Below are positions 20,436 through 48,171 of a stretch of DNA of 64,000 bases, piece by piece. Location: contig NZ_JPVO01000055.1 of assembly GCF_000772955.1 (NCBI RefSeq), positions 310,001 through 374,000 of the forward strand. The letters are read 5' to 3'. Within the stretch, counting starts at the first letter, position 1. Each line of letters opens with the position of its first letter. The stretch comes from Ureibacillus sinduriensis BLB-1 = JCM 15800 (GTDB taxonomy: Bacteria > Bacillota > Bacilli > Bacillales_A > Planococcaceae). Position numbers and translations under genes: made by a program. Under the pieces are notes generated by a model. That model did not search any database. It saw only the letters and a list, made by a program, of their open reading frames with translations, and was not told where the DNA came from.

Positions 20436-21200
20436 GTGGAGGAAACGATTAGCTTACAAGAATTATTTATAATTATGCGCAAACGGTTTATGCAAATTGC
20501 TATCTTTGCAATTATTGGTGCTTTGACAGCTGGAATCATAAGTTTCTTCTTACTGACTCCAGTCTACCAGGCATCAACGCAAATATTAGTTAATAAACAA
20601 GTACATGAGCAACAGACAATTGAATCCCAAGATATTCAGACAAATCTACAATTGATCAATACATATAATGTGATTATAAAGAGTCCCGCTATTTTATCGA
20701 AAGTCATTGAAATTCTGGATTTAAATTTAAATTCAGCACAGTTGACAGATAAAATCTCGGTTGCAAGCCAAAATGATTCCCAAGTGGTCAATGTAACAGT
20801 TCAGGATGATAATCCGGCAATAGCGGTGGAAATTGCCAATACAACAGCTGAAGTGTTCCAGCAGGAAATCCCAATTTTGATGAATGTAGATAATGTTAAT
20901 ATTCTTTCTCCGGCAGTTTTGAGTGATAATCCAACTCCCGTAAAACCAAATAAATTATTGAATATTGCTGTCGGAACTGTCGTTGGGCTCATGATTGGAT
21001 TAGGATTGGCATTTTTGATGGAATATTTCGATACAACAATTAAGTCGGAAGAAGATGTGGAAGAAATTCTGGGGCTACCGATTATAGGTCTTGTAAGCCC
21101 GATACCAGAAGAATTATCGACTACATTTGACTTGACGAGAAAAGGAAAGGGGGATCCACATGTTAAAACGGAAAAGGAAAAAGTCCAACACTATGTCTAG
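20436..21200 (+). CDS. Chain-length determinant / BY-kinase activator (Wzz, YveK/CapA-like)
   Basis: A 254-residue inner-membrane protein of the Wzz/polysaccharide co-polymerase family. Transmembrane helices lie at about residues 19-41 and 174-195, flanking an extracytoplasmic domain; the Pro-rich SDNPTPVKPNK motif precedes TM2, as in the family. The cytoplasmic tail normally activates the cognate tyrosine kinase, encoded by the next gene. The GTG start at 20436 follows AAGGAGAGG. It overlaps the kinase gene by 41 bases. It is the first gene of polysaccharide locus 1. Confidence 0.9.
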   Translation: MEETISLQELFIIMRKRFMQIAIFAIIGALTAGIISFFLLTPVYQASTQILVNKQVHEQQTIESQDIQTNLQLINTYNVIIKSPAILSKVIEILDLNLNSAQLTDKISVASQNDSQVVNVTVQDDNPAIAVEIANTTAEVFQQEIPILMNVDNVNILSPAVLSDNPTPVKPNKLLNIAVGTVVGLMIGLGLAFLMEYFDTTIKSEEDVEEILGLPIIGLVSPIPEELSTTFDLTRKGKGDPHVKTEKEKVQHYV

Positions 21201-21861
21201 AAAAATTGTTGCTGCGACACATCCAAAGTCAATTAATGCTGAACAATATAGGACAATCAGGACGAATATCAATTTTTCAATGCCCGACCAGGAATTGAGA
21301 ACACTCTTAGTTACATCTGCATCTCCAGCGGAAGGTAAATCGACAACAGCGTCCAACATTTCTGTAGTATTTGCACAAGAAGGGAAAAAGGTGCTTTTGA
21401 TTGATGCCGACATGCGAAAGCCTACATCGCATCATACTTTCAAACTGACCAACATGTATGGCTTGTCAACTGTTTTAACAAGACAAGGTGAAGTGGAAGA
21501 GGCGATTCAGAAAACCGATGTGGAAAATCTATGGGTAATGACAAGTGGGCCGATTCCGCCAAATCCCGCCGAATTATTAGCATCGAAGAATATGGATTTT
21601 CTATACTCCCGCTTGCAGGAAGATTTCGATTTACTTGTGTTTGACACACCTCCTATTTTATCGGTATCGGATGCGCAAATCGTTTCAAACAAAGTGGACG
21701 GTACAGTTTTGGTTATTAATACGGGGCAATCCGAAAAGGAAAGCTCCTTAAAGGCAAAAGAACTGTTGTTGTCTGCTAAGGCCAATATACTCGGCGTTAT
21801 TTTAAATAATTTTAATCTCGAGAAAAATCAATATTACTACCAATATTATGGTGAAGGGTAA
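21160..21861 (+). CDS. Bacterial tyrosine kinase (CpsD/CapB/YwqD family)
   Basis: A 233-residue BY-kinase. Walker A is SPAEGKST (Lys60), Walker A' is VLLIDADMRKP and Walker B is LLVFDTPP. The C-terminus carries the autophosphorylation tyrosine cluster (QYYYQYYGEG, five tyrosines). It phosphorylates itself and often nucleotide-sugar dehydrogenases, tuning chain length and precursor supply; two such dehydrogenases are in the window. A GGGGG ribosome site precedes the ATG inside the upstream gene. An internal start at 21193 is possible but less likely. Confidence 0.92.
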   Translation: MLKRKRKKSNTMSRKIVAATHPKSINAEQYRTIRTNINFSMPDQELRTLLVTSASPAEGKSTTASNISVVFAQEGKKVLLIDADMRKPTSHHTFKLTNMYGLSTVLTRQGEVEEAIQKTDVENLWVMTSGPIPPNPAELLASKNMDFLYSRLQEDFDLLVFDTPPILSVSDAQIVSNKVDGTVLVINTGQSEKESSLKAKELLLSAKANILGVILNNFNLEKNQYYYQYYGEG

Positions 21862-21908
21862 AGACATTTAAAACCTTTATTATTGGCTTATATAGGAAGG
21901 AGGATGCC

Positions 21909-22676
21909 ATGATGATCGATATGCACAGTCACATCTTATGGAAAGTGGACGATGGCCCATCGACAAAAGAAGAATCTCTCGCACTGCTTGAACAGGCGGC
22001 AAAAGAAGGGATTACCGATGTGATTTCAACTTCCCATAGCCAGCACCCTCAATATGATGCAGATTACGGTGTAGTTCTTGAGAAAATCACGGAATTACAG
22101 AAAGAACTGAACAGGCGGCAAATCCCTATAGTGTTGCATAGCGGACATGAAGTTCGTCTAACCGAAAAACTAGTTACGGCCATTCAGGAAGGAAGAATTC
22201 ATTTGCTGGCTGATTCCAAATATCTTTTATTGGAACTGCCTTCCAGCCATATCCCCAACTATACAAAGAAAATGATTCATGCACTACTAATGGAAGGCAT
22301 TACACCGATTATTGCACATCCGGAACGCAATAAAGGGGTAGCGGAAAAACCGGAAAGATTGGAACGTTTGATCCGTGAAGGCGCACTTGCCCAAATTACA
22401 GCTGGCAGTTTAGCTGGTCATTTTGGAAAATCCGTACAGCAATTATCATTGAATTTGGTGCGTGCCAACCTAGTTCATACATATGGTTCGGACGTGCACA
22501 ATCAAACGACAAGACCACTTCTTTTTGAAAGCGGACTTCGATTTTTGGAAAAAAAGAAAGAATTTGAAGCTATTGAAATGTTACTGCACAATAATAAAAT
22601 GATTGTTGAAAAGAAATCATTTGTACTGTTTGAACCGGAAATAGTCCAACCGAGAAGGTGGTGGTCCTTATTATAG
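21909..22676 (+). CDS. PHP-family protein tyrosine phosphatase, copy 1 (CpsB/YwqE-like)
   Basis: A 255-residue metal-dependent phosphatase that dephosphorylates the BY-kinase. The PHP motif MIDMHSHILWKVDDGP is at the N-terminus; further metal ligands are in TSHSQHPQ, the HSGHE segment, IAHPERN and YGSDVHN. AAGGAGG (21897-21903) precedes two adjacent ATG codons (21909, 21912). With the two genes before it, it forms the canonical regulator/kinase/phosphatase trio. A clear paralogue is encoded at 45748-46512. Confidence 0.92.
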   Translation: MMIDMHSHILWKVDDGPSTKEESLALLEQAAKEGITDVISTSHSQHPQYDADYGVVLEKITELQKELNRRQIPIVLHSGHEVRLTEKLVTAIQEGRIHLLADSKYLLLELPSSHIPNYTKKMIHALLMEGITPIIAHPERNKGVAEKPERLERLIREGALAQITAGSLAGHFGKSVQQLSLNLVRANLVHTYGSDVHNQTTRPLLFESGLRFLEKKKEFEAIEMLLHNNKMIVEKKSFVLFEPEIVQPRRWWSLL

Positions 22677-22823: not shown

Positions 22824-24683
22824 ATGAATTATAAACAACGATATGCAGTATTCGTCATAGTAGATTCGCTTATAGTTCTCTCGGCAATTTTCTTTTGTTA
22901 TTGGGTTCTTTATCCAACCTTTAATACTTATTCAAATAAATTAATTCTTATTTCGGCAGTGACATTATTATTAAGCCATCACATTGCTGCACACTTTTTT
23001 CACTTATATGATCGGATATGGAGTGTGGCTTCCGTCCGTGAATTATTAACAATTTTCTATTCGGTAACGATTTCAATTACTTCAGCAAGTTCCGTACAAT
23101 TTATCGTAAATGGGGATATTTACGTTCGTTTGATGTTAATTACATGGTTAGTCCACATAGTATTGATTGGTGGTTCCAGGTTTATCCTTAGAATTGCGCA
23201 TGATCGAACAACCATTAAAGCAGTGGGGGAATCAAAGAGTGTACTGATTGTTGGAGCTGGACAAGCTGGAACCATGCTGGCGAGGAGCATCAATAATAGC
23301 TCGAATCGTGAGTACAGTGCGGTAGGGTTTGTGGATGATGATCCAACAAAGCAACAATTAACATTGATGAATCTTAAAGTCTTGGGAACAACTGAAGATA
23401 TCCCAAGACTTGTGGAAGAAAAAAATATCGATGAAATTATATTAGCGATTCCATCACTAGGAAAGTTCGCAATACAGCATATATACGAAAAATGCTCCAA
23501 AACAAAGGCGATAGTGAAAATTATGCCTAAAGTAGAGGATGTTTTAACTTGTAAAGTGTCTGTAAAAGATATGCATGATGTCAGAATTGAAGATTTGCTG
23601 GGTCGTGAAGAAGTAAAGCTGGATATGTTTTCTATATCCAATAAATTAACAGACAAAGTAATTTTAGTGACGGGTGCAGGGGGCAGCATTGGATCCGAGA
23701 TTTGCAGGCAGGTAATGAAGTTTTCACCAAAACAATTACTATTACTGGGTCATGGTGAAAATTCAATATATAGTATTCATTTGGAATTAATGGAGAATTA
23801 TCAAGAAACCTCCACGCAGTTTATACCAATCATTGCGGATATACGTGATCGAAACCGTATTTTTGAGATAGTAAAATCATACCGACCGGATGTTATTTAT
23901 CATGCAGCTGCACATAAACACGTTCCGCTAATGGAATATAATCCATGGGAAGCTGTTAAAAACAATGTTTTCGGTACAAAAAATGTCGCTGATGCGGCCC
24001 ATGAATATGGAGTGTCAAATTTTGTCCTTATATCAACGGATAAAGCCGTGAATCCGCCTAACGTAATGGGGTCAACGAAACGAATTGCTGAAATGATTAT
24101 TCAAAATCTTTCGACAATAAGTAAAACAAACTTTGCAGCAGTGAGATTTGGCAACGTTTTGGGGTCTCGAGGAAGTGTTGTTCCACGCTTTAAAGCCCAA
24201 ATTGCAGCAGGTGGGCCTGTAACTGTCACTCATCCAGAGATGACGAGATATTTTATGACGATTCCCGAGGCTGCACGGCTGGTTTTGCAAGCTGGCACAC
24301 TGGCGCGCGGTGGTGAGGTATTCGTGTTGGACATGGGTGAGCCGGTGAAAATAGTGGATCTAGCTAAAAACTTAATTCGCCTTTCCGGCTTTACAGAAGA
24401 CGAAATCAAAATTGAATTCACAGGTATCCGCCCAGGAGAAAAAATGTACGAAGAATTACTCAAGCCTGAAGAAATTCAAAAACGCCATGTTTACCCCAAG
24501 ATTCATGTAGGCAAAGCACATGCTTTGGATACCGACTCTCTACATCAGTTACTCATGAAATTGCAGTCACTGGAAGTACATGAAATTAAAGAGGAAGTTG
24601 TTAAAGTAGCAAATGGGAGAAGGACTGTACCACGGAAGAAATACCCGACTTCCAACTTTGTTGAATCCTATGATGTGTCTTAG
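22824..24683 (+). CDS. pglF: Membrane-bound UDP-GlcNAc 4,6-dehydratase (PglF/CapD-like)
   Basis: A 619-residue protein with four N-terminal membrane helices (about residues 8-120), a CoA-binding-type Rossmann domain (VGAGQAG near 145) and a C-terminal extended SDR domain (VTGAGGSIGSE near 283). The catalytic region STDKAVNPPNVMGSTKR has Met in place of the SDR tyrosine, as in PglF/WbpM dehydratases. It converts UDP-GlcNAc to the 4-keto-6-deoxy sugar. With the aminotransferase, acetyltransferase and transferase encoded at 31762-34176 it would give the bacillosamine pathway. The ATG at 22824 is chosen because AGAGGGAAG lies before it; GTG 22806 is an alternative. Confidence 0.88.
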   Translation: MNYKQRYAVFVIVDSLIVLSAIFFCYWVLYPTFNTYSNKLILISAVTLLLSHHIAAHFFHLYDRIWSVASVRELLTIFYSVTISITSASSVQFIVNGDIYVRLMLITWLVHIVLIGGSRFILRIAHDRTTIKAVGESKSVLIVGAGQAGTMLARSINNSSNREYSAVGFVDDDPTKQQLTLMNLKVLGTTEDIPRLVEEKNIDEIILAIPSLGKFAIQHIYEKCSKTKAIVKIMPKVEDVLTCKVSVKDMHDVRIEDLLGREEVKLDMFSISNKLTDKVILVTGAGGSIGSEICRQVMKFSPKQLLLLGHGENSIYSIHLELMENYQETSTQFIPIIADIRDRNRIFEIVKSYRPDVIYHAAAHKHVPLMEYNPWEAVKNNVFGTKNVADAAHEYGVSNFVLISTDKAVNPPNVMGSTKRIAEMIIQNLSTISKTNFAAVRFGNVLGSRGSVVPRFKAQIAAGGPVTVTHPEMTRYFMTIPEAARLVLQAGTLARGGEVFVLDMGEPVKIVDLAKNLIRLSGFTEDEIKIEFTGIRPGEKMYEELLKPEEIQKRHVYPKIHVGKAHALDTDSLHQLLMKLQSLEVHEIKEEVVKVANGRRTVPRKKYPTSNFVESYDVS

Positions 24684-24827
24684 TTGTATGCAAGTTGCCG
24701 GGCAATCTTATATAGTAAGTAACTTTTTAAGTATCAATAGATCATTAAATAATTAATAAGAAAAGTAGAGAAGTTACCGTTTATATACTATCCATCAATA
24801 AAATAGATAAGTAAAGAAGGTAGAAGA

Positions 24828-25841
24828 ATGAATTTTGCAATCATAGGATGCGGGTTTATTGCAAAGAAACATGCAGAAGCCATTAGGAATATACCGGGTG
24901 CTAATCTTGTAGCAGTTTGCGATCGACAGCCAGAGCTAATGCTGCCATATATCGAAAATGACAGTGCAGAAGCGTTTGTAGAAATAGAAGAATTGCTAAA
25001 AGTTGAAAGTATTGATGTAGTAAACATTTGTACACCTAGCGGAAGTCACGCGGCTATTGCCGAACTGGCAGCTAACAGTGGAAAACATATTATAGTAGAA
25101 AAGCCTATTGCAATGACAATTGAACAAACAATTCGAATAATAGAAGCTGCAAATAGAAATAACGTAAAACTTGCAGTAGTTCATCCTAATCGTTTTAGGC
25201 CAGTTGCAATGAAGCTTAGGGAAATGATTGATAATAATCTTCTGGGAAAGATTAGCCATGCATTATGTATTGTCAATTGGAACCGTGGACAAGAGTATTA
25301 TGACCAATCTCCCTGGCGCGGAACGAAGGAACATGATGGTGGCGTACTAATGAACCAAGCCATTCATAACTTAGACTTATTACTTTGGTATTTAGGAAAT
25401 CCTATTGAAGTAATGAGTATGGAAGCAACACGTTTAAGAAACATTGAAGCCGAAGATGTTTCAACCGGGATTATTAAATTTGAGACAGGAGTACTTGCGA
25501 CTGTTCAAGCTTCGACAACTGTTTATCCAAAAAACTATGAAGAATCCATAACTATTTTTGGGGAAAAGGGTACCGTTAAAATTGGTGGTGCAAATGCCCT
25601 CAATTTTGAACATCTGGCTTTGGAAAATATGAACGATAGTGAAATTTTGCAAATAAAAGAAGCGATTGAAAAGGAGCCGTGGGGAACACCAGGACACCAG
25701 AAAATTATTGAAGATATGATTGTAGCAATTAGAGAAGACAGAAAACCTGCTGTGACTGGGGAAGACGGAAAAAAAGCGCTTTCCCTAGTAGAAGCATTTT
25801 ACAAATCTGCTAAAAGCAAAAAACTATTAAAACTACAATAA
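24828..25841 (+). CDS. wbpB: Gfo/Idh/MocA oxidoreductase, UDP-GlcNAcA 3-dehydrogenase (WbpB-like)
   Basis: A 337-residue NAD-dependent oxidoreductase. The N-terminal Rossmann domain has the motif IGCGFIAKKHAEAI; the catalytic segment VEKPIAMT (EKP motif) is near residue 90, and VVHPNRFRP and NQAIHNLDLLLW follow. WbpB oxidises C3 of UDP-N-acetylglucosaminuronic acid. The assignment rests on family features plus its place directly before a WbpA-type dehydrogenase and in the same locus as WbpE- and WbpD-like genes. AAAGAAGGTAGA precedes the ATG. Confidence 0.82.
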   Translation: MNFAIIGCGFIAKKHAEAIRNIPGANLVAVCDRQPELMLPYIENDSAEAFVEIEELLKVESIDVVNICTPSGSHAAIAELAANSGKHIIVEKPIAMTIEQTIRIIEAANRNNVKLAVVHPNRFRPVAMKLREMIDNNLLGKISHALCIVNWNRGQEYYDQSPWRGTKEHDGGVLMNQAIHNLDLLLWYLGNPIEVMSMEATRLRNIEAEDVSTGIIKFETGVLATVQASTTVYPKNYEESITIFGEKGTVKIGGANALNFEHLALENMNDSEILQIKEAIEKEPWGTPGHQKIIEDMIVAIREDRKPAVTGEDGKKALSLVEAFYKSAKSKKLLKLQ

Positions 25842-25854
25842 AGGACTGATCGAA

Positions 25855-27189
25855 TTGGTGCAAATCTTCAACAAATCAACGAGTAAAACACTTATTGAAA
25901 AACTGGAAACTAAAACAGCCACTATTGGAGTGGTGGGGTTAGGATACGTAGGTTTACCTCTTGCCGTTGAAAAAGCAAAGGCGGGCTTTAATGTAATCGG
26001 ATTTGATGTACAGCCGGAAAAAGTTAAAATGGTAAATAATGGGGAAAATTATATTGGTGATGTGATTTCAAAAGATTTAAAAGAGTTAGTGAAATCCGGA
26101 AAATTGCGTGCCACTTCCGACTATTGTTTTATAAAAGATGTTGATGCAATTGCTATTTGTGTACCCACTCCATTGGACATTTATAAACAGCCAAATATGA
26201 AGTATGTCGAAAGTTCGACAAAAGCTATAGCAAAAAACATAACGGAAGGCACATTAGTGGTTTTGGAAAGTACAACCTATCCAGGTACAACAGAAGAATT
26301 AATCAAACCTATCCTTGAAGAAAAAGGATTTGTGATTGGTGAAAATATTTTCCTGGCATATTCTCCAGAGCGAGTAGATCCAGGCAATAAAAATTTCAAT
26401 ACAAAAAATACACCAAAAGTAGTTGGAGGAGTAACAGCTAACTGCACAAAAGTTGCTGCAACCATGTACCGTTCAGTATTAGAAGGGGATATCCATGAAG
26501 TTTCGAGCCCTGCCATTGCTGAAATGGAAAAGTTGCTAGAAAATACTTTCCGAAATATTAACATCGGTTTAGCGAATGAGATGGCCATTCTATGTAACAA
26601 AATGGGCATTGATGTATGGGAAGTAATTGATGCTGCATCGACAAAACCATATGGGTTTATGCCGTTTTATCCAGGACCGGGTTTAGGTGGGCACTGTATA
26701 CCGATAGATCCGTGGTATTTAACATGGAAAGCCCGTGAATATAATTATCACACCAAACTTATTGAGACTGCAGGTGAAATTAATGACAGCATGCCTGACT
26801 TTGTAGTTCAGCGTTGTATGGAAATATTGAATGAACAAGGGAAGTCATTGAAAGAGTCAAAAATTTTGATACTCGGTGTGGCTTATAAAAAAGATATTGA
26901 TGATTACCGTGAATCACCAGTATTACCTATTCTGGATAAGTTAACTAAATTTGGTGCAAAGTGGGCAGTGGTTGATCCTTTTATAAGCAAATTTAAATTG
27001 AACGATGAATTTGTTGAAACAGTCGAAGCAACTGATGAGAAGTTAAAAACATCAGACCTCGTATTGATTGCAACAAACCACAGCAATTTTAATTATGAGA
27101 GGATTATTGGTAATTCAAAAGCAGTTTTAGATACCCGGAATGTTTTGAATGGAAAGAGTAAAACACGAAGCCATTGCTATAAGTTATAA
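25855..27189 (+). CDS. wbpA: UDP-N-acetyl-D-glucosamine 6-dehydrogenase (WbpA-like)
   Basis: A 444-residue nucleotide-sugar dehydrogenase. The NAD-binding motif GLGYVG is at residues 28-33, and the catalytic cysteine is Cys281 in GGHCIPIDPWYL. The VNNGENYIGDV segment and the GGHC context (rather than GGSC) are typical of UDP-HexNAc dehydrogenases such as WbpA and TviB, not UDP-glucose dehydrogenase. The product would be UDP-GlcNAcA. The start is TTG 25855 or GTG 25858; AAGGA lies 9 or 12 bases upstream. It is 13 bases downstream of the WbpB-like gene and two bases before the flippase gene. It is a possible BY-kinase target. Confidence 0.88.
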   Translation: MVQIFNKSTSKTLIEKLETKTATIGVVGLGYVGLPLAVEKAKAGFNVIGFDVQPEKVKMVNNGENYIGDVISKDLKELVKSGKLRATSDYCFIKDVDAIAICVPTPLDIYKQPNMKYVESSTKAIAKNITEGTLVVLESTTYPGTTEELIKPILEEKGFVIGENIFLAYSPERVDPGNKNFNTKNTPKVVGGVTANCTKVAATMYRSVLEGDIHEVSSPAIAEMEKLLENTFRNINIGLANEMAILCNKMGIDVWEVIDAASTKPYGFMPFYPGPGLGGHCIPIDPWYLTWKAREYNYHTKLIETAGEINDSMPDFVVQRCMEILNEQGKSLKESKILILGVAYKKDIDDYRESPVLPILDKLTKFGAKWAVVDPFISKFKLNDEFVETVEATDEKLKTSDLVLIATNHSNFNYERIIGNSKAVLDTRNVLNGKSKTRSHCYKL

Positions 27190-27191
27190 CT

Positions 27192-28451
27192 ATGAATCTT
27201 AAAAGTGTTTCGAAGAACATCTCGATATTAATGACAGGTACAGTAATTTCGCAAATAATTCCAATAGCCATGTCTCCTATTTTAACAAGATTATATACTC
27301 CAGCGGAATTTGGAGTACTAGCTGTATTTACTTCCCTTGCATCATTTTTTGCAATTTTCGCCAATTTACGTCTGGATGTGGCGATCATGTCTGCAAGTAA
27401 TAAAAAAGAAATGTTAATACTTAGAAATATAAGTTTAATCGTAACTGCACTTCTAACTTTAATTATATGTTTGATACTAATTGTATTTGCAGACTTATTT
27501 AAAGAGATGTTTAAGGAGGTAAATTATAGTTTAATACTTGTTTTCGTACCTCTATTTGTATTGTTATTTGGAACCTTGCAACTACTCACCTATGTCGCTA
27601 ATAGTAAAGGTCAGTATAGTTTAATTTCTAAAAGTAAAGTAGATAAAAATCTAAGTATGGTGATCATCCAAATCATACTAGGTATGAATAAAATCGGAGT
27701 AGTAGGCTTAGTGTTAGGAACGGTCGCCAGTTTTATCCCGCCGTTAGGAAGGTTAGGCAAAGGGACGATTAAGGAAAATAGGAATAGAAAAATTAACAAG
27801 TCGGAGTATGTTGCTACCCTAAAAAAATATAAGAAATTCCCCTTGATATCAGCCGGAACTGCAGCTATGAATAAATTTGCAACAGAGTCACCTGTGTTGA
27901 TAATGAATAGATTTATAGATCAAAGTTCTGTAGGGTATTTTGATTTAGCGAGACGGACAATTTTGCAGCCGTTAAGTTTTATCTCTGCTTCTATTTCGCA
28001 AGTATATTTAAAGCAGATAACCGAAGAGAGTGATTATAGGGAAAATATTAAACTTACAGCCATTATTTTAGCAGGACTGTCTTTTGTTGCTGTACTAGTA
28101 GCAACGATTATTCTCTTGTGGGGAGAAGTGATTTTTGCTTTTGTATTTGGTGACGAATGGAGAATTGTAGGGGAATATTCCAAAATCCTTGTATTTCCGT
28201 TTCTAATGCGATTTATTGTATCTCCATTAAGCGTGGTATTTCTAAAACCGGAAAACATTATAATGGGTGGGGTGTGGCAATTTTTATACCTTGTCACAAG
28301 CTTAACGGTAGCATTAGTATTCTTGCCTGCTGGATTTATGACTTATATAAAAGTCTTTGCAATTTCTGAAATATGTATCTATTTAATTTATCTAGTAATG
28401 ATATTGTTTGCATTAAGGAAAATTGGCAGAAAAAGTGAGGTAAGCACGTAA
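27192..28451 (+). CDS. Polysaccharide repeat-unit flippase (Wzx-like)
   Basis: A 419-residue membrane protein with about 10-12 hydrophobic helices of the MOP/polysaccharide-transporter type (the start NISILMTGTVISQIIPIAMSPILTRLYTPAEFG is characteristic in pattern). It would flip the undecaprenyl-PP-linked repeat of locus 1 across the membrane. It begins two bases after the dehydrogenase stop and lacks a strong ribosome site, suggesting translational coupling. Coding sequence here is visibly richer in A/T than the housekeeping block. It is the only flippase recognised in the window. Confidence 0.88.
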   Translation: MNLKSVSKNISILMTGTVISQIIPIAMSPILTRLYTPAEFGVLAVFTSLASFFAIFANLRLDVAIMSASNKKEMLILRNISLIVTALLTLIICLILIVFADLFKEMFKEVNYSLILVFVPLFVLLFGTLQLLTYVANSKGQYSLISKSKVDKNLSMVIIQIILGMNKIGVVGLVLGTVASFIPPLGRLGKGTIKENRNRKINKSEYVATLKKYKKFPLISAGTAAMNKFATESPVLIMNRFIDQSSVGYFDLARRTILQPLSFISASISQVYLKQITEESDYRENIKLTAIILAGLSFVAVLVATIILLWGEVIFAFVFGDEWRIVGEYSKILVFPFLMRFIVSPLSVVFLKPENIIMGGVWQFLYLVTSLTVALVFLPAGFMTYIKVFAISEICIYLIYLVMILFALRKIGRKSEVST

Positions 28452-28631
28452 TCAAAGATTGTTCTTTTAGCAATTTGTTTACTTCATATTCCATAATGTT
28501 TCGGTTATTAGCATTCTCTATACATTCTAATAGAGAAATGAAAATACCTATGAGTTCCTAAAGTAAATAAGTATTATTTTCAGCACGTAAATAAAAATTT
28601 TCATTAGATCAGGAAAATGAAGGAGGTTTAA

Positions 28632-29735
28632 ATGAAAGTTTGCCACTTGACATCCGTGCATCCACATAACGATACAAGAATTTTTGTAAAAGAATGCTGC
28701 ACACTAGCGGAAAATGGTTTTAGCGTAACGTTGATTGCACCAGGTGCGCCAGATGAGAGTATAAAAGGGGTACATTTGATTGGTGTAGATAAAGTCAAAG
28801 GTAATAGGGTAAAACGCATGACACAAACAACTAAAGCAGTATATGAAAAGGCGCTTGCTGTGGATGCGGATATCTATCATTTTCATGATCCGGAATTAAT
28901 ACCTGTTGGGTTAAAGCTTAAGAGAAAAGGCAAAATCATTATTTATGATGTGCATGAAGATGTTCCCAGACAAATTCTCAGCAAGAACTGGATACCTAAA
29001 CTTTTCAGGACACCTATTGCTAAATTTTTCGAAAGGTATGAAAGTGATGCATCCCGAAAATTCGATGCAATCGTAACAGCCACGATGCATATCGAAGATC
29101 GGTTTAAAAACTATAACAAAGAAACGTACAATATTAACAATTTTCCCTCCCTAAAAGAGATGGATTTTAAGATTGGTACCCCACCCAAGAAAGAAGCTGT
29201 TTGTTATGTTGGCGGCATTACAAAAGTGAGAGGGGCTTTTGAAATGACCGAAATGTTGGGGATTGTAAATCAAAAAAGAAATCTAAGATTAAAATTAGCG
29301 GGTCCGATTGATCAAAAAATCACTCCGGAATTAACAAATCACAAGAATTGGTCATATGTAGACTATAAGGGTGTACTAGATAGAAAGGGAGTAAAAGAAG
29401 TTTTAACTTCTAGCAAGATTGGCTTAGTAACGCTTCATCCCATAATAAATTATTTAGACGCACTTCCAGTGAAAATGTTTGAGTATATGGCAGCGGGGAT
29501 ACCAGTTATTGCCTCGGATTTCCCACTGTGGCGAGAAATTGTCGGGAAAGCCAATTGCGGTGTTTTAGTTGATCCGTTGAATCCGACTCACATTGCGGAA
29601 GCTGTAGAGAGTTTATTGAAGGATGAACAAAGGGCCAAAACCATGGGTGAAAATGGTCGGCATGCGGTGGAACAAGAGTACAACTGGGAAAAAGAAGGTC
29701 AGAAGTTAGTGAAATTATATCAGTCATTCCAATGA
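28632..29735 (+). CDS. Glycosyltransferase family 4
   Basis: A 367-residue GT-B glycosyltransferase. The C-terminal donor-binding domain shows EYMAAGIPVIASDFPLWREI near residue 285 and the end VEQEYNWEKEG; the N-terminal acceptor domain begins with CHLTSVHPHNDTRIFVKE. No signal peptide or membrane helix is present, so it acts at the inner face of the membrane. It would add one sugar to the growing lipid-linked repeat; donor and acceptor cannot be read from the sequence. AGGAGG precedes the ATG. The 180-base gap upstream holds an imperfect hairpin near 28511-28540. Confidence 0.85.
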   Translation: MKVCHLTSVHPHNDTRIFVKECCTLAENGFSVTLIAPGAPDESIKGVHLIGVDKVKGNRVKRMTQTTKAVYEKALAVDADIYHFHDPELIPVGLKLKRKGKIIIYDVHEDVPRQILSKNWIPKLFRTPIAKFFERYESDASRKFDAIVTATMHIEDRFKNYNKETYNINNFPSLKEMDFKIGTPPKKEAVCYVGGITKVRGAFEMTEMLGIVNQKRNLRLKLAGPIDQKITPELTNHKNWSYVDYKGVLDRKGVKEVLTSSKIGLVTLHPIINYLDALPVKMFEYMAAGIPVIASDFPLWREIVGKANCGVLVDPLNPTHIAEAVESLLKDEQRAKTMGENGRHAVEQEYNWEKEGQKLVKLYQSFQ

Positions 29736-29845
29736 TGTACTCCAGTATGCTGGGAAGGGAAATATAACACATAAGCTTGTAAACCTTATTTTATCAGAGG
29801 TAAAAAGCGCTGTATCTGAGCAGTTTTCGAAAGGAGTGTTTTCAA

Positions 29846-30553
29846 ATGATAAAAGGGAGTAACGTTATTATTGATGAAAGTGTGGTGCTGGGGAAGAATG
29901 TCCAGCTTGGCAATAATGTTGTCATTTATCCGGGCACAACAATTGGAAATAACGTAATTATTCAGGATAATGCGGTCATTGGAAAACAACCTACCCGCGC
30001 AAAAGCCTCAATATTGCCTGATGTTAAAAGTCTTCCCCCAACAGTCATTGGAAATGGGGTTACTATCGGAACATCAGCCATCATTTACGCAAATGCCAAA
30101 ATTGAAGATGATGTATTTATCGCCGATTTGGCAACTGTTCGAGAACGGGTAACTATTGGCGAAAAAACAATTATAGGTCGTGGTGTAGCCGTGGAAAATG
30201 ATTGTACCATAGGAATTCGTTGCAAACTTGAAACAAACTGCTACATTACAGCCTATTCTGAAGTAGGAGATTATGCATTTATAGCTCCATGTGTCGTAAC
30301 TACAAATGATAATTATATGGCAAGGAGTAAGGAAAGGTTTGACAAGTTTAAAGGTGTTACCGTAAAAACTGGTGGTCGAATTGGTGCGAATTCTACTATC
30401 TTACCTGGAAAAATAATTCATGAAGACGGTGTAGTAGCAGCAGGAAGTCTTGTTTCAAAAGATGTGGAATCTGAAACAATTGTCTTAGGCAACCCTGCAC
30501 GGAAATTCGATAAAGTACCTGAAAATCAATTGTTAAAAAACCAACAAAATTAG
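29846..30553 (+). CDS. Left-handed beta-helix acyltransferase (WbpD-like N-acetyltransferase)
   Basis: A 235-residue protein built almost entirely of hexapeptide repeats (for example VIIDESVVLGKNVQLGNNVV and IGANSTILPGKIIHED), the trimeric acetyl-CoA-dependent transferase fold. The later part (VVTTNDNYMARSKERF) corresponds in position and character to the acceptor loop of WbpD, which N-acetylates the 3-amino group of UDP-GlcNAc3NA. It has more repeats than WbpD, so it may accept a different acyl donor or amino sugar. The ribosome site is AAAGGAGTG. It completes a WbpA/B/D/E set in the locus. Confidence 0.78.
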   Translation: MIKGSNVIIDESVVLGKNVQLGNNVVIYPGTTIGNNVIIQDNAVIGKQPTRAKASILPDVKSLPPTVIGNGVTIGTSAIIYANAKIEDDVFIADLATVRERVTIGEKTIIGRGVAVENDCTIGIRCKLETNCYITAYSEVGDYAFIAPCVVTTNDNYMARSKERFDKFKGVTVKTGGRIGANSTILPGKIIHEDGVVAAGSLVSKDVESETIVLGNPARKFDKVPENQLLKNQQN

Positions 30554-30560
30554 GTGGATT

Positions 30561-31781
30561 ATGAATATATGGTTATTAAATCACTATGCTGTTTCTCCAA
30601 ACAGCACTGGGGGAACTAGACATTTCGATCTAGCGGAACAATTGGTGAAAAAAGGACATATAGTTACGATATTTGCCTCCTCTTTTAATCATTTTAATAG
30701 AAAAGAAACGCAAACTTATAAGTCTCGTAATTTTTACAAGACAGAAGTAATCAACGGTGTAAGATTTGTTTGGTTTAAAACCCCTCAGTATAAAAATACA
30801 TTGGAGAGATTGCTCAATATAAGTTGCTTTGGGTTATTTTTACAAAAAAGTTTGAAATATTTCTTAACATTAGAAAGGCCTGACTTAATTATTGGTTCAA
30901 GTGTTCATCCTTTAACTGCATTGATAGGTTTGAAATTTGCTAAAAAAAATAACATAAAATTTTACTTTGAGGAAAGGGATTTATGGCCGCAGACTTTTGT
31001 TGACTTTGGATTGATAAAACCTACTAACCCTCTTGCAAAAATATTATACAAAATCGAAAAAAATCTATATTTACAGTCAGACAAGATTATTTTCTTATTT
31101 GAAAATGCTTATCTTTATGCACAAAGTAAAGGGGCAAATATCGAAAAAATTATATATTTGCCAAATGGTTTCAATCCAAACAGGAATATAAATAATCAAA
31201 GGTTAGATTCAGGCTTAGAGAAGATTTTTAAACGTTTAGATGGAAAAAAGATATGTACTTATATAGGAAGCATGAATCTTTCCAATAATCTTGAATCAAT
31301 AGTTGAGTTAGCTAAAATTATGAGAAATGAAGAAAATTATCATTTCTTATTAATAGGCAACGGAAATACAAAAAAAGCTTTAATTGAACTGGTGAAAACC
31401 GACTCATTAAATAATATAACGATATATGACTCTGTGCCCAAATCATCGGTACCCGCGATTCTAAAAAAGTCACACTTTGGATTTATTTCGATAAAAAGCT
31501 CGCCATTATACAAGTGGGGGATGAGTATGAATAAATTATACGACTATCTATCCGAAGGACTGCCTATTATTTGTTATACGGATATGGAGGATTTAGGTGA
31601 AATAGAAAAATCTAGGGCATTTTACAAATCATCTGATATTTATGAGTTGAAAGATTTTCTTTTAACCATAGACAATTTTAACTCTCAATTTGTAAAAGAA
31701 TTCGCCTACAAACATTATTCCTGGGATATCCTTTCCGACAAGTTAATCGAGGTAATGGAAAATGATAAAAAGAATGATTGA
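30561..31781 (+). CDS. Glycosyltransferase family 4 (WbuB-like)
   Basis: A 406-residue GT-B glycosyltransferase. The N-terminus ([21 protein letters not shown]) and [16 protein letters not shown] near residue 140 are typical of WbuB-type enzymes that add N-acetylated amino sugars early in O-antigen or capsule assembly. The C-terminal domain has [17 protein letters not shown]. It overlaps the PglC-like transferase gene by 20 bases, which fits a role as the second-sugar transferase acting on the PglC product. The coding sequence is strongly A/T-rich. Confidence 0.85.
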
Positions 31782-32373
31782 TATAATCTTAAGTTTCTTG
31801 GCTTTACTGGTTCTAGCACCAATAATCCTACTGGTTGCAGTACTAGTTAGAAAAAAGCTGGGTTCACCCATAATTTTTAAACAACTAAGGCCTGGTAGGA
31901 ATGGAGAGATATTTCAACTTTATAAGTTTCGTACAATGACTGATGAGAAGGATGAGGATGGTGAACTCCTTCCAGATACAGTTCGTTTAACTAATTTTGG
32001 GCAACTTCTGCGGAAACTAAGTTTAGATGAACTTCCTCAACTGTGGAATATCCTTAAAGGTGATATGAGTTTTGTGGGACCACGCCCGCTATTAGTTGAA
32101 TATTTACCACTTTATAACGAACGCCAAGCACGGCGACATGATGTTCGACCGGGAATCACTGGGTGGGCCCAAGTGAATGGGCGGAATGCGATTTCGTGGG
32201 AGCAGAAGTTTGAGTACGATGTTTGGTATGTGCAAAACCAATCTTTGTTCCTAGATTTCAAAATTTTGTTTTTAACGTTCAAAAAAGTACTTCAATCGGA
32301 AGGTATAAATCAACCGGGTCAAGCAACAAACGAAAAATTCAAAGGTAGTGGGGCTGAATGGAAATCATTTTAG
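31762..32373 (+). CDS. pglC: Initiating sugar-phosphate transferase (PglC-like)
   Basis: A 203-residue small monotopic phosphoglycosyl transferase. Residues 5-28 form the hydrophobic re-entrant helix, followed by [20 protein letters not shown], the catalytic pair in [16 protein letters not shown] and [13 protein letters not shown]. PglC transfers phospho-N,N'-diacetylbacillosamine to undecaprenyl phosphate; the short length without extra N-terminal helices fits PglC rather than WbaP. It overlaps the PglD-like gene by 16 bases, and a PglE-like gene follows, matching the Campylobacter set. Confidence 0.9.
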
Positions 32374-32999
32374 TTGGGGACAGTGGACACGCCAAGGTGA
32401 TTCGAGATTGTGTGGAATCCAATGGATGTAAAGTTGTGGCCATTGTTGATGATAAGTATGAGCAGATCTTTTCAGATAAGGATAAGGAAGTACTTAAGGG
32501 GCCAATTGATGGATTTGTTCACGAATTAATAAAGAAGAATAATAGAAAACTAGTCATTTCAATCGGTGATAATGAAACTCGTAGGATGATTGTAAAGAGA
32601 CTTGCTTTACCAGAAGATTGCTATTCGACCATAATACATACCTGCACTTCTATTAGCAGTACTGCAAAAATAGGTGTTGGGACTGTTATTATGCCTGGTG
32701 CTGTTATAAATGCGGATACACAGATTGGCAATCATTGTATTGTTAATACCCATACAGTAATTGAACATGATTGTATCATTGAAGACTTTGTTCACCTTTC
32801 ACCAAGTTGCACATTGACTGGTGGGGTAAAGCTTGAAAAAGGTGTTCACCTAGGAGCAGGTAGTACAGTCATTCCGCTAAAAGAAATTTCGGAATGGACA
32901 ATCGTAGGGGCAGGTTCAGTCGTTATCGATAATCTCCCTCCTAATTGTACGGCTGTTGGTATACCAGCTAAACCGATTAAATTTCGTGAATTACAATAA
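32358..32999 (+). CDS. pglD: UDP-amino-sugar N-acetyltransferase (PglD-like, NeuD family)
   Basis: A 213-residue enzyme with an N-terminal Rossmann-like domain ([16 protein letters not shown]) and a C-terminal left-handed beta-helix (about residues 95-205) ending in VGIPAKPIK. The catalytic histidine is expected in HTVIEHDC. PglD acetylates the 4-amino group of UDP-4-amino-4,6-dideoxy-GlcNAc to give UDP-N,N'-diacetylbacillosamine. It lies between the PglC- and PglE-like genes, overlapping the former. Related NeuD proteins act on sialic acids, but no neu genes are present. Confidence 0.88.
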
Positions 33000-33021
33000 A
33001 AAGTGTGAGAGAAGGCTTAAT

Positions 33022-34176
33022 ATGGTCGAACGAATTCTATTATCCTCCCCTCATATGGGTGGACTTGAGCAGAGTTTTATTCAAGAAGCTTTTGAGACTA
33101 ATTGGATTGCTCCACTTGGAGCGAATGTAAACGCGTTTGAAAGGGAGCTTGCATCCTACGTTGGCATAAAAGCGGGTTCAGCAACAAGTTCTGGTACTGC
33201 TGCCATTCATCTCGCTCTTGATTTACTAGGTGTTCGGGCAGGCGATATCGTATTTTGTTCTACCCTGACTTTTATAGCTAGTGCCAACCCCATTTTATAC
33301 CTTGGTGCAAAACCAGTTTTCATCGATTCTGAAGAGAGTACTTGGAATATGTCTCCTGAAGCTTTGAAGCTCGCCTTCAAAGATGCAAAAGCAAGTGGAC
33401 AACTTCCAAAAGCAGTCATCATCGTCAATTTATATGGTCAAAGTGCCCGAATGGCGGAACTAATGGACATATGTAATTCGTACGGTGTTCCTGTTGTTGA
33501 AGATGCAGCAGAATCATTGGGTTCTACATACAGAGGAAAGAAAAGTGGAACATTTGGAAAGTTTGGCATTTATTCTTTCAACGGTAATAAAATTATCACT
33601 ACTTCCGGAGGGGGTATGCTCATGTCGGATGACATAGATTTAATTGAAAAGTCCCGTTTTTTGGCTACACAAGCAAGGGATGCAGCCAAGCATTATCAAC
33701 ATAGTGTTATTGGTTACAATTATCGAATGAGCAATATTGTAGCGGGTATTGGACGTGGTCAATTAAAAGTCTTAAATGAAAGAGTATCTCAAAAGAGAGC
33801 TATCTTCCAAAGATATGCTGAGGCATTCTCACATCTCGATGGAATCGAGATGATGCCGGAACTAGACGGTACATTTTCAAATCGTTGGTTGTCAACAATG
33901 ACTTTAGATCCTATGAAAATACTAATCACACCCAATGAGCTAATCGATGTTTTGGATGAAGCAAACATTGAAGCTCGTCCGGTCTGGAAGCCGCTTCATA
34001 TGCAACCCTTGTTTTCAGGCTCTAAATTTTTTCCGCATGATGAAAAAGATATCGTAAGTGAACGATTATTTGCTAGAGGCATTTGTTTGCCTTCCGATAC
34101 AAAAATGACGGAAGAACAACAACAACGAGTTATAGATTTAATCATCCACAAGGTTAAACCCATATTAATCAAATAG
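33022..34176 (+). CDS. pglE: UDP-4-keto-6-deoxy-GlcNAc aminotransferase (PglE-like, DegT family)
   Basis: A 384-residue PLP-dependent aminotransferase. The N-terminus RILLSSPHMGG and NWIAPLGANVNAFE is the PglE/PseC-type signature; the PLP-binding lysine is Lys190 in SFNGNKIITT. It would transaminate the PglF product at C4. The ATG at 33022 is chosen because GAGAAGG lies just before it; the frame is open upstream to 32956 but that would overlap the PglD-like gene. It is 12 bases upstream of a second, different aminotransferase gene. Confidence 0.9.
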   Translation: MVERILLSSPHMGGLEQSFIQEAFETNWIAPLGANVNAFERELASYVGIKAGSATSSGTAAIHLALDLLGVRAGDIVFCSTLTFIASANPILYLGAKPVFIDSEESTWNMSPEALKLAFKDAKASGQLPKAVIIVNLYGQSARMAELMDICNSYGVPVVEDAAESLGSTYRGKKSGTFGKFGIYSFNGNKIITTSGGGMLMSDDIDLIEKSRFLATQARDAAKHYQHSVIGYNYRMSNIVAGIGRGQLKVLNERVSQKRAIFQRYAEAFSHLDGIEMMPELDGTFSNRWLSTMTLDPMKILITPNELIDVLDEANIEARPVWKPLHMQPLFSGSKFFPHDEKDIVSERLFARGICLPSDTKMTEEQQQRVIDLIIHKVKPILIK

Positions 34177-34188
34177 GACGTGTGAATA

Positions 34189-35322
34189 ATGGAATTTAGA
34201 GATTTAAAAATACAATATGAAAAATATAAAGATGAAATCGATTCCGCCATTCAAAATGTAATTTCGGAGACTCAATTCATTGGTGGTAAAATCGTTTCGG
34301 ATTTAGAAAGACAATTGGCTGAATATGTAGGAGTGAAACATTGTATTACTTGTGCAAATGGTACTGAGGCTTTGTCATTAGTTTTGATGGGTTGGGGAAT
34401 TGGGAAAGGAGATGCGGTTTTTGTCCCTGATTTTACTTTCTTTTCAACGGGCGAGGTGGTTTCCTTTGTAGGGGCGACTCCAGTTTTTGTAGATGTTGAA
34501 CGTGATACTTTTAATATTGATGTGGTCAAATTAGAAAGTGCAATTCAAGCGACAATCGAGGAAGGAAAATTAACACCAAAGGTTATTATTCCGGTTGATT
34601 TATTTGGTTTACCGGCAAATTATTTAGAAATCGAAAAGATTGCAAAGAAATACAACCTTTTAGTTTTGGAAGATGGAGCGCAAGGATTTGGTGGCAGCAT
34701 CAACGGTAAAAGAGCGTGTAGTTTTGGGGATGCTGCCACAACTTCATTTTTCCCAGCCAAGCCATTGGGGTGCTACGGTGACGGTGGAGCGATCTTTACA
34801 AATGATGATATCTTGGCTAAGTTATTAAACTCTCTAAAAGTACATGGCAAAGGCGAAAATAAGTACGACAATATTAGAATTGGTGTAAATTCGAGGTTGG
34901 ATACGATTCAAGCAGCAATATTAAAAGTGAAATTTAAAGCTTTTATTGAACATGAAGTTGAAGATGTTAATAGAGTCTATAGATTATATAACGAAAAATT
35001 GAGTGGTATAGTCGAGACTCCAGTAATACCGCATGGTTATTATTCAAGTTTTGCACAATACACCTTGAAGTTGAAAAGTAGAGAACAACGAGATGGGCTA
35101 CAATCATTTCTTAAAGAAAATGGGATTCCAAGCATGATTTATTATGTGAAGCCTATGCATAGTCAAAAAGCATTCGAGGATTTAAACATTGATGAAAGTA
35201 ATTTTGAAGTAACAAATGAGCTATGTGAAATTGTTTTATCTCTACCAATGCATCCGTATTTAAAAGATCATGAGATAGACCTGGTGAGCAGCATGGTAAA
35301 GAAATATATTATGGCTACTTAG
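34189..35322 (+). CDS. wbpE: UDP-3-keto-GlcNAcA 3-aminotransferase (WbpE-like, DegT family)
   Basis: A 377-residue PLP-dependent aminotransferase. MEFRDLKIQYEKYKDEID and ETQFIGGKIVSDLE at the N-terminus, CANGTEALSLVL and the PLP lysine Lys191 in FFPAKPLGCYGDGG are typical of WbpE/FdtB-type C3 aminotransferases and differ from the adjacent PglE-like enzyme. It would aminate the WbpB product at C3. GGACGTGTG lies just upstream of the ATG. The substrate assignment depends on the WbpA/WbpB/WbpD neighbours. Confidence 0.86.
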   Translation: MEFRDLKIQYEKYKDEIDSAIQNVISETQFIGGKIVSDLERQLAEYVGVKHCITCANGTEALSLVLMGWGIGKGDAVFVPDFTFFSTGEVVSFVGATPVFVDVERDTFNIDVVKLESAIQATIEEGKLTPKVIIPVDLFGLPANYLEIEKIAKKYNLLVLEDGAQGFGGSINGKRACSFGDAATTSFFPAKPLGCYGDGGAIFTNDDILAKLLNSLKVHGKGENKYDNIRIGVNSRLDTIQAAILKVKFKAFIEHEVEDVNRVYRLYNEKLSGIVETPVIPHGYYSSFAQYTLKLKSREQRDGLQSFLKENGIPSMIYYVKPMHSQKAFEDLNIDESNFEVTNELCEIVLSLPMHPYLKDHEIDLVSSMVKKYIMAT

Positions 35323-35634: not shown

Positions 35635-36909
35635 ATGAAATTATTTAAGCATCTCCTGAGCGGAGAAGTATGGTTCGTTTTATTTTTATTCTCAGGCGCA
35701 TTTAAAGAAAGTTTGAACTTACAGATAGATATTGCCATAGTATTTTTTATCTTGACATTTTTTTCGGTGGTATTTCGATTTGCGAAGAATCCTACTGTTA
35801 CCAAATATTCTATTACACCTTTAGTGTTCTTCGTTTTTCTGATTTGTATTGTCATTATTAGTTATTTATATACTTTAGGTACGCTTAATGCCGATGAAAA
35901 AATTATTAAATTTTTAGTATTAACTGTACCTTCTTTTTTGTTTCCTTTGATTCTTATTAGGGACAAGGAGAGTTTGATTAAATTTTTGTCTACAATAGCA
36001 ATCTTATCTGTTGCGCTTTCCATAATTTCGTTACCCATGATTTTTCAAAAGGGTTCGGAACTTGGATTTGTAGGTTTCAACGGTGGAAACTATCAAGGTT
36101 TAGCTAGAATAAACGGTATAGGGTTAATTATTCTTTTCATTTTTGGTTTATTTAGGGCAAAATCTAAATTAAGACAAACGCTTTACGTAGTGGCCAGTCT
36201 AATTGTTTCTTTTTCTTTGCTAGGCACTGGAAGTCGAATGCCTTTATTAGCGTTTGCTATTGTTTTAATTTACTTCGTTTTTTCTTCCATTAGGATCGAA
36301 AGGGGTAAAATCCTATACAGAAAAGAATTAAAATTCGCCTTGATTATAGCTCCTGTTCTTATATTAATATTGATCATTTTAGGTAAAGATGGTTATTTTA
36401 ATTCGATTCTTTATAGATTTGAAGTGCTATTCTCAAATGAAGGTGGTGAATCGACAGAAGCAAGGATGGAGAGGTTTATAACCGCTTTTGAAATTTGGGG
36501 GGATTACCCCATATTTGGAGGTGGAATCGGAAGTTTCGGAATGCTATACCATGGCTATGAGTATTCTGATTACCCGCACAATATCTTTTTGGAGTTTTTA
36601 TCGGAACAAGGCTTAATTGGGTTTATGGTTTTTTGTCTCCTTTTTTTGCTCGTTATATATAGAGGCCTAATTATTTACCGGAAAAAGCAAAAAGAAATGG
36701 ATACCGTTCAATTGGTGCTAGTTTGTTGTTTTGTATATTATTTTTTTAACGCATTGGTTAGCGGAGATATAAACGGAAATAGAATGCTTTTCACTCTTCT
36801 GGCTATAATTGCTGTATCGCCGTATCTTAATAAGTCAATTGAAAGTCATAAAAGCATAGGACTTACTGGTTCGAAAGCACAACATAAAAGCCAAAAGTCT
36901 ACGTCGTAA
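35635..36909 (+). CDS. O-antigen/capsule polymerase-like membrane protein (Wzy/ligase family)
   Basis: A 424-residue integral membrane protein with about 10-12 hydrophobic helices. The large loop with IFGGGIGSFGMLYHGYEYSDYPHNIFLEFLSEQG (about residues 300-330; Gly/Tyr and PHN motif) is the Wzy_C/O-antigen-ligase signature. It would polymerise the lipid-linked repeats of locus 1. A good ribosome site is not obvious (ACAGGAGC 20 bases upstream). The stop is followed by a small hairpin. Confidence 0.85.
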   Translation: MKLFKHLLSGEVWFVLFLFSGAFKESLNLQIDIAIVFFILTFFSVVFRFAKNPTVTKYSITPLVFFVFLICIVIISYLYTLGTLNADEKIIKFLVLTVPSFLFPLILIRDKESLIKFLSTIAILSVALSIISLPMIFQKGSELGFVGFNGGNYQGLARINGIGLIILFIFGLFRAKSKLRQTLYVVASLIVSFSLLGTGSRMPLLAFAIVLIYFVFSSIRIERGKILYRKELKFALIIAPVLILILIILGKDGYFNSILYRFEVLFSNEGGESTEARMERFITAFEIWGDYPIFGGGIGSFGMLYHGYEYSDYPHNIFLEFLSEQGLIGFMVFCLLFLLVIYRGLIIYRKKQKEMDTVQLVLVCCFVYYFFNALVSGDINGNRMLFTLLAIIAVSPYLNKSIESHKSIGLTGSKAQHKSQKSTS

Positions 36910-37393
36910 ACAGTGCCAGGTTTATATAGCCAACCTGGTAGATCAACAACGGTTAAGCGTTATACTGCTTCACGCAACCTATGTATCCTCAATTATAAAT
37001 CGTACTGAAGATGGTACAGCCATATAACGAGGGATCCAATAAGATATTCAGATCTTGAATGTTATTTCCTCAGAAGTAGAATCAATTGCTAGGTAGATTG
37101 AGTAAAATGAATCATTTGTCTTGGTGAATTGGTCTAAGCAATAATCCCTATGGAAATAGAAAAGCAATAAAATGTTAAAGAGTCGATTTGAAAAATATTT
37201 TTTTCGAATCGATTTTTTAGTTTTTACAATGATTAACGGGAAAAGGGAACATTTCAATAGGAATATATCGTTAAAGGAGTAGTGGTTTTTAAGCGTAGTA
37301 CAAAAACAATTATCGAAAAGTGATAAAGGAAAACAGTTAACGGCAGTTTTTCATGAGAATTAACCGATTGTCGTTTAAAGTTGAGGATGATCT
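36910..37393 (+). other. 484-base intergenic region after the polymerase gene
   Basis: It begins with a 7-base hairpin (36917-36923 with 36933-36939) containing GTGCCAGG, which resembles a fragment of the repeat at 38853-38901. A strong terminator lies at 37183-37218. No ORF was recognised between them. Confidence 0.5.
37183..37218 (+). terminator. Rho-independent terminator of polysaccharide locus 1 core
   Basis: A 13-base stem (37183-37195 with 37200-37212, one G-U pair), 4-base loop, followed by TTTTTTAG and a second T run. Confidence 0.85.
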
Positions 37394-48153: not shown

Positions 48154-48171
48154 GAATTGGAGGATATAAAA

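Follow-up and report, generated by a model that had tools for sequence, protein, structure and literature searches.

Gene sets for diacetylbacillosamine and 2,3-diacetamido-glucuronate in one predicted exopolysaccharide operon of Ureibacillus sinduriensis BLB-1

A 64,000-nucleotide stretch of the Ureibacillus sinduriensis BLB-1 = JCM 15800 genome (contig NZ_JPVO01000055.1, positions 310,001 to 374,000; hereafter the window, numbered from its first letter) harbours a Wzx/Wzy-type exopolysaccharide (EPS) operon, which spans 20436-36909 and lies on the + strand throughout. A sequence-only reading had proposed that two rare-sugar pathways are interleaved here, one for UDP-diacetylbacillosamine (UDP-diNAcBac) and one for UDP-2,3-diacetamido-glucuronate (UDP-GlcNAc3NAcA), and the proposal is borne out: judged by sequence, the two pathways are complete, and they share one polysaccharide operon. 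The whole is best explained as a Wzx/Wzy-dependent EPS (or capsule) operon in which both sugars enter one polymer, a reading to which we assign a probability of about 0.72. The gene order is wzz-wze-cpsB-pglF-wbpB-wbpA-wzx-gt4a-wbpD-gt4b-pglC-pglD-pglE-wbpE-wzy, with Wzx, Wzy, Wzz/Wze and an initiating transferase all encoded in the one operon. All eight PglF/E/D/C- and WbpA/B/D/E-like genes of the earlier reading are intact + strand genes that lie within 22824-35322; the operon exceeds this interval, as wzz-wze-cpsB start at 20436 and wzy ends at 36909.

In the proposed scheme, PglF, PglE and PglD would convert UDP-GlcNAc to UDP-diNAcBac, while WbpA, WbpB and WbpE, together with a 235-aa acetyltransferase, would convert UDP-GlcNAc to UDP-GlcNAc3NAcA (the gluco form, there being no WbpI). 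PglC would then place diNAcBac-1-phosphate onto undecaprenyl phosphate, and the family 4 glycosyltransferases GT4b and then GT4a would lengthen the unit, GlcNAc3NAcA being added by one or both of them. Wzx would flip the repeat unit and Wzy polymerise it, with Wzz/Wze/CpsB controlling chain length. Sequence alone establishes that the genes are intact, which families they belong to, their catalytic motifs and their context; we infer every enzyme activity, the presence of both sugars in one polymer, the order of the glycosyltransferases and the size of the repeat; the glycan and its linkages are predictions, and a trisaccharide repeat is predicted from the count of glycosyltransferase genes alone.

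The two sugar-nucleotide gene sets

The predicted UDP-diNAcBac set (PglF/E/D plus PglC) is complete. The best solved-structure match of PglF is Campylobacter PglF (5bju, 338 bits), and the protein retains the STDKA..NVMG motif; its residues STDKAVNPPNVMGSTKR are those of a large membrane short-chain dehydrogenase/reductase with T-D-K and with Met replacing Tyr, features whose functional meaning we assume. PglE best matches Campylobacter PglE (1o61/4ztc, 338 bits), and its pyridoxal phosphate (PLP) lysine is retained, the window NGNK aligning to 1o61 and also to 4ztc, whose Lys is altered. In a tree of 61 aminotransferases, with only five PglE rows, it clusters with C. jejuni PglE (support 100/99). 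PglD passes the NeuD/PglD family model and keeps the His of IEHDC. PglC is a short transferase whose best solved-structure match is a diNAcBac-1-phosphate transferase (8g1n, 274 bits); it carries within LSLDELPQL an Asp-Glu dyad, which we take to be functional, and is the likely initiator of the repeat unit.

The predicted UDP-GlcNAc3NAcA set, consisting of WbpA/B/E and a non-canonical 235-aa acetyltransferase, is well supported by sequence. Its occurrence was followed in 80 named loci, the best 80 among the matches listed for the WbpB alignment search. WbpA is 46% identical to one annotated Pseudomonas WbpA against 36% to one WecC and 35% to one TviB (a single reference each, with names taken from database annotation); a homologue is present in 77 of the 80 wbpB loci and adjoins wbpB in 58. 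The best solved-structure matches of WbpB are 3q2i (202 bits) and 3q2k (198 bits), which we take to be WlbA-type enzymes, their depositors naming them merely 'dehydrogenase' and 'oxidoreductase'. Residues K92, H180 and D183 are unchanged across 12 aligned homologues. The protein is distant from one Pseudomonas enzyme in the WbpB position (23% over 203 aa), and 3o9z, whose chain is named wbpB, is matched at just 49 bits. The Pseudomonas WbpB is reported to have a ping-pong mechanism, and the Bordetella and Chromobacterium enzymes a sequential one (PMC10622841). The window WbpB is presumably of the sequential kind.

The solved-structure matches of WbpE are led by 4qgr (397 bits), with WbpE chains in second place (312 bits). 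In the aminotransferase tree, it falls into a clade with support 100/100, whose other members are P. aeruginosa WbpE, the WbpE of a Pseudomonas plasmid, 4qgr and 17 closely related proteins (type I). Most wbp loci have an aminotransferase of another kind (type II, about 38-45% identical); these enzymes lie outside the clade and do not form one clean clade themselves. The window protein carries NSRLD, and the NSR motif recurs in 17/17 type I and 67/69 type II proteins; its Asn and Arg presumably serve the uronic acid, a role for which no supporting paper was found in open-licence full texts. For the only type II protein tested, a Geobacillus one, the QdtB score (374 bits) exceeds the WbpE score (326 bits), whereas one type I protein gives 317 bits for WbpE and 229 bits for QdtB. 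Type II enzymes nevertheless likely perform the WbpE step as well, because a diacetamido uronic acid has been described in the wall polymer of a Geobacillus (PMC8559796; an argument at genus level).

At 235 aa, the acetyltransferase exceeds WbpD in length; it scores 97 bits against QdtC, compared with 54 bits against the WbpD-like WlbB chain 3mqg; its gene context, among the WbpA/B/E genes, supports the WbpD role for what would be a non-canonical enzyme. Across the 80 loci, type II aminotransferases pair with the 235-aa type in 59 and with the WbpD-like 187-aa type in three, type I with the 187-aa type in six and with the 235-aa type in one, while 11 loci lack one or both enzymes in the stretch read. 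At the thresholds used, the two acetyltransferases never co-occur, as expected if both do the same job. With regard to the FdtB/QdtC clades, a placement in which the sequence-only reading had named as refuting, WbpE lies in the WbpE clade, and the acetyltransferase is sequence-closest to QdtC, though it stands among WbpA/B/E genes.

In the window, the canonical type I wbpE sits behind pglE at the 3' end. A type I wbpE behind pglE in combination with the 235-aa type occurs in one of the 80 other loci (Virgibacillus sp., L071/L173). Of the 59 loci that combine a type II WbpE with the 235-aa type, 29 have wbpE no more than two places ahead of wbpD. We infer from this arrangement an aminotransferase swap at the WbpE step in the window. 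A type II wbpE remnant was sought in the gt4a-wbpD gap (29736-29845): local protein matching against 18 type II proteins gave a best score of 35, matched by 31 of 300 dinucleotide shuffles, and a DNA search gave short matches only (E 0.7 or more). As no remnant was found in the window, the swap is argued from gene order alone.

Several observations weigh against these assignments. PglF, PglE, WbpB, WbpA and WbpE are all without any NCBIfam equivalog at cut-off, and the top models, all under cut-off, are PseB for PglF, LegC for PglE, IolG for WbpB, PseC for WbpE and, as top equivalog for WbpA, UDP-ManNAc dehydrogenase. The top solved structure for WbpA is Cap5O (247 bits). PglD is closer to PerB (112 bits) than to the PglD chain (82 bits), which makes its label generic, and both PglD and the 235-aa acetyltransferase are inseparable by sequence from other sugar N-acetyltransferases. 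Nor did fold comparison separate acetyltransferase types: the predicted structure of the 235-aa protein is of middling quality (mean predicted local distance difference test, pLDDT, 76.6; predicted template modelling score, pTM, 0.45) and shows the common hexapeptide-repeat fold, the matches to LpxA, QdtC, LpxD and 3mqg (WlbB) differing from one another by no more than about 2 Z units. In the aminotransferase tree, LegC, C. jejuni PglE and 4qgr sit on long branches, and the C. jejuni PglE row is a partial chain.

The absence of WbpI from the cluster had led the earlier reading to predict the gluco form, and the genome agrees with it. A PF02350 search of the assembly (4.0 Mb, 55 contigs, 99.98% complete) found just two 2-epimerases, a wecB/MnaA (556 bits) and a NeuC whose gene is located in a cluster with LegB, LegC, NeuB and NeuD-family genes, and no WbpI-type enzyme. 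Three epimerase positions have been linked to substrate choice, with Ala reported for the Thermus enzyme (PMC10622841). The MnaA of the genome has Met/His/Arg at these positions, the residues of a UDP-GlcNAc epimerase, while one Pseudomonas enzyme in the WbpI position has Ala, Tyr and Trp, and 40 of 40 cluster epimerase rows (37 loci and three duplicates) show either Ala or Val at the first position, followed by Tyr and Trp. With no WbpI-type epimerase in the genome, the predicted product is most likely the gluco form, UDP-GlcNAc3NAcA. As side observations, the WbpI-type epimerases of three clusters that combine pgl and wbp genes (L067, L070 and L131) have Val where the Thermus enzyme has Ala, and one pgl and wbp cluster (L062, L181) contains an open frame of 164 aa with 61% identity to MnaA, which may be a gene fragment.

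Relatives and known systems

By DNA similarity of the rny gene, compared across 14 genomes, the source genome stands near 'Bacillus ndiopicus' (82%) and Metasolibacillus (81%), with a genus mate at 83%. Within the source genome and 60 relatives, a WbpB match (E <=1e-40) is present in 20 of the 61. In the own genus (25 genomes, source included), PglE is found in 13, a type I WbpE (>=68%) in eight and both in five. Three of these genomes (G005, G011, G018) and one from another genus of the same family (G034) have pglF, pglE, wbpA, wbpB and wbpE in one cluster, and the clusters of G011 and G034 additionally have pglC within the stretch read. Further afield, among 44 Bacillales genomes (the author's pick from the 80 loci), a PglE match (E <=1e-80) occurs in 34, and together with wbp genes in 20; 16 of these 20 clusters were read in extended stretches, whose contigs match the loci in length, and four in the first stretch. 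A further candidate, L090, turned out to sit on a contig of different length. In the other 36 of the 80 loci, pglE was not seen within the 10 kb read.

The order pglF-wbpB-wbpA-pglC-pglE is kept in 12 of the 20 clusters, and ten of them enclose wbpE and the 235-aa wbpD as well; in nine of the 20, wbpE (of the different aminotransferase type) precedes wbpD immediately or with a single intervening gene. The eight clusters without this pglF-to-pglE order are arranged otherwise, one having its pgl genes on the opposite strand. The cluster of Siminovitchia fordii is close in order to the window. Co-occurrence is no more than suggestive for the assignment of glycosyltransferase donors: gt4b (>=40%) is found in 12/20 loci with pglE vs 3/60 without, and gt4a (>=40%) in 10/20 vs 22/60. 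Some individual clusters deserve mention. One record labelled Bacillus subtilis (L130) carries a pgl and wbp cluster, and its species label may be wrong. In another such cluster (L045, 4060-11587), ATP-grasp, 303-aa hexapeptide and FemAB/GNAT-like proteins are encoded around wbpB, a hint that the uronic acid may be decorated with an amino acid; in L041, L043 and L044, the genes at corresponding places are alike in size.

The sequence-only reading had further held that such a glycan would be unusual in a Bacillales cell envelope. This view fails, because the sugars are known in relatives (B. subtilis and Geobacillus) and the combined gene sets occur in 20 of the 44 Bacillales genomes. In B. subtilis, EpsL uses UDP-diNAcBac as the first EPS sugar and EpsD adds GlcNAc (PMC10653937); QuiNAc4NAc is part of the EpsA-O repeat, and the EPS backbone of B. 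licheniformis is reported to be the same (PMC11447030). The eps genes resemble the window in that EpsC/N/M/L are the equivalents of PglF/E/D/C and the second step falls to a GT4 enzyme (PMC10653937, PMC11447030), but the polymer differs from the predicted glycan in that its reported structure includes pyruvylated galactose and no diacetamido uronic acid (PMC11447030). The secondary cell-wall polymer of Geobacillus stearothermophilus does contain a diacetamido-dideoxy uronic acid, although in the manno form and together with GlcNAc and glucose (PMC8559796). Loci of other Geobacillus species differ from the window in their WbpI-type epimerase and gene order, and show no pglE in the stretch read.

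Outside the Bacillales, the O-antigen of Psychrobacter cryohalolentis resembles the predicted glycan in combining 2,4-diacetamido-2,4,6-trideoxyglucose (diNAcBac) with a second diacetamido-D-sugar (PMC8040287). The PDB title of 8e62 (partial) names a P. cryohalolentis N-acetyltransferase for a diacetamido-2,3-dideoxy sugar, and the O-antigen appears to contain both sugar kinds. It differs in being a Gram-negative lipopolysaccharide with a triacetamido sugar, rhamnose and galactose as well (PMC8040287). In the K loci of Acinetobacter baumannii, GlcNAc3NAcA (dga) and QuiNAc4NAc (qhb/gdr) form separate, swappable capsule modules, whose dga products are described as Pseudomonas WbpB/D/E-like rather than as the Bacillales enzyme types (PMC9676051, PMC3628348). 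For Pseudoalteromonas, one reference is cited for a bacillosamine derivative and diacetamido-mannuronoyl-alanine (PMC3210612). No paper describing both pathways together in Bacillales was found among the matches listed in the open-licence full-text literature. A Neisseria elongata glycan reportedly carries both sugar kinds, and no paper on it was found in open-licence full texts. The excerpts of PMC6901666, PMC7725333 and PMC11130364 contain nothing on the combination of pathways.

Alternative explanations

Instead of a loose EPS or capsule, the polymer might be a secondary cell-wall polymer to which SLH proteins are anchored. Upstream of the operon, 18193-19323 encodes an SLH protein, similar genes flank the clusters of several relatives, the genome has 44 SLH-domain matches and three PS_pyruv_trans genes, and a diacetamido uronic acid is part of the Geobacillus wall polymer (PMC8559796). 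We nevertheless consider this explanation unlikely: no pyruvyl transferase is found among the operon proteins, Wzz/Wze/CpsB, Wzx and Wzy constitute an EPS/capsule kit, and the Geobacillus loci differ in gene order and have no pglE in the stretch read. The uronic acid might also be used in the manno form (ManNAc3NAcA), as in the Geobacillus polymer, the housekeeping MnaA acting on UDP-GlcNAc3NAcA too. Epimerases with WbpI-type residues are present in 37 of the 80 related wbp loci and in three of the 20 pgl and wbp clusters, from which the manno form would be common in the wider family. As the window cluster has no epimerase and the MnaA residues are not those of the cluster epimerases, this course seems distinctly unlikely.

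It is quite improbable that the two sugars go into two separate glycans. Another polysaccharide cluster does begin at about 45748 and encodes an initiating transferase of its own, but it also has its own sugar genes (TuaD-like, gmd, ManC-like, galE), and the two pathways are interleaved in one operon with a single Wzx, Wzy and PglC. Very improbable is the synthesis, by the acetyltransferase and WbpE, of another 3-amino sugar of the Qui3NAc/Fuc3NAc type. The affinity of the acetyltransferase to QdtC speaks for it, as does the type II enzyme of one related wbp locus, an aminotransferase nearer QdtB than WbpE; yet the window WbpE belongs to the WbpE clade, the operon also includes wbpA and wbpB, and no QdtA/FdtA-type ketoisomerase is present among the operon proteins, to which this search was confined.

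Operon features and implications

The features of the operon are collected in Table 1. Spacing between its genes ranges from 41-base overlaps up to 312 bases (the gap 5' of wzy). The terminator-like stem behind wzy is to be read against the finding that such matches are overall not more numerous than in shuffled sequence; promoter-like sites are likewise at chance level (73 observed vs 68.6 in shuffles). Rfam gave no match of any kind at gathering scores within 17500-47000, and accordingly no eps-associated RNA.

Table 1. Predicted genes and terminator-like stem of the operon (window positions).
Feature	Position	Strand	Basis or remark
Wzz/CapA-type chain-length regulator	20436..21200	+	TIGR01006 207 bits, under model cut-off
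Wze/CapB tyrosine autokinase	21160..21861	+	TIGR01007 242 bits, over cut-off
CpsB-type tyrosine phosphatase	21909..22676	+	NF041488 135 bits, under cut-off
PglF/EpsC membrane UDP-GlcNAc 4,6-dehydratase	22824..24683	+	GTG at 22806 also open as start
WbpB/WlbA UDP-GlcNAcA 3-dehydrogenase	24828..25841	+	3q2i/3q2k matches
WbpA UDP-GlcNAc 6-dehydrogenase	25855..27189	+	identity to annotated Pseudomonas WbpA; gene context
Wzx flippase	27192..28451	+	PF13440 and PF01943, both over cut-off
GT4a glycosyltransferase	28632..29735	+	GT4-type NCBIfam matches, under cut-off
235-aa hexapeptide N-acetyltransferase, putative WbpD role	29846..30553	+	QdtC/3mqg matches; 25-member alignment from wbp clusters
GT4b glycosyltransferase, WcaI-like	30561..31781	+	NF007640 75 bits, under cut-off
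PglC/EpsL UDP-diNAcBac phosphoglycosyl transferase	31762..32373	+	8g1n match, LSLDELPQL motif
PglD/EpsM NeuD/PglD-family N-acetyltransferase	32358..32999	+	TIGR03570 206 bits, over cut-off
PglE/EpsN 4-aminotransferase	33022..34176	+	1o61/4ztc match, PLP Lys, tree
WbpE 3-aminotransferase, canonical type	34189..35322	+	WbpE-chain matches, NSRLD motif, clade
Wzy polymerase	35635..36909	+	PF04932 64 bits, over cut-off
Terminator-like stem, probable operon end	37175..37220	+	20 pairs (3 G-C), then TTTTT

The second polysaccharide cluster (45748-63558) encodes CpsB, an initiating transferase, an LCP protein, TuaD-like, GDP-mannose dehydratase, ManC-like, GalE and TagA-like proteins, and several glycosyltransferases. 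Elsewhere in the genome, a legionaminic-acid-type cluster (G000:C4:68000-87900, L050) with PseB, LegB, LegC, NeuC, NeuB and NeuD families probably serves another surface structure.

For the window alone, the outcome is mostly well-supported annotation; both sugars have precedents in related bacteria, and the gene combination recurs in many relatives. Somewhat short of an even chance, we tentatively regard the window as one version of a widespread, undescribed Bacillales biofilm or capsule family with mostly constant ends and a variable middle, in which a diNAcBac base is combined with a diacetamido uronic acid (gluco or manno) and the aminotransferase is swapped between two distant types. The commonest order within this proposed family is pglF-wbpB-wbpA-wzx ... 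wbpE-wbpD-gt4b-pglC-pglD-pglE, the ends being mostly constant. If both sugars are indeed part of one polymer, several Bacillales EPS would start like that of B. subtilis EpsA-O, but a diacetamido uronic acid, not pyruvate, would supply their charge. A rule readable from the genes (initiator, acid sugar, gluco or manno) would then predict the surface glycans of many environmental bacteria.

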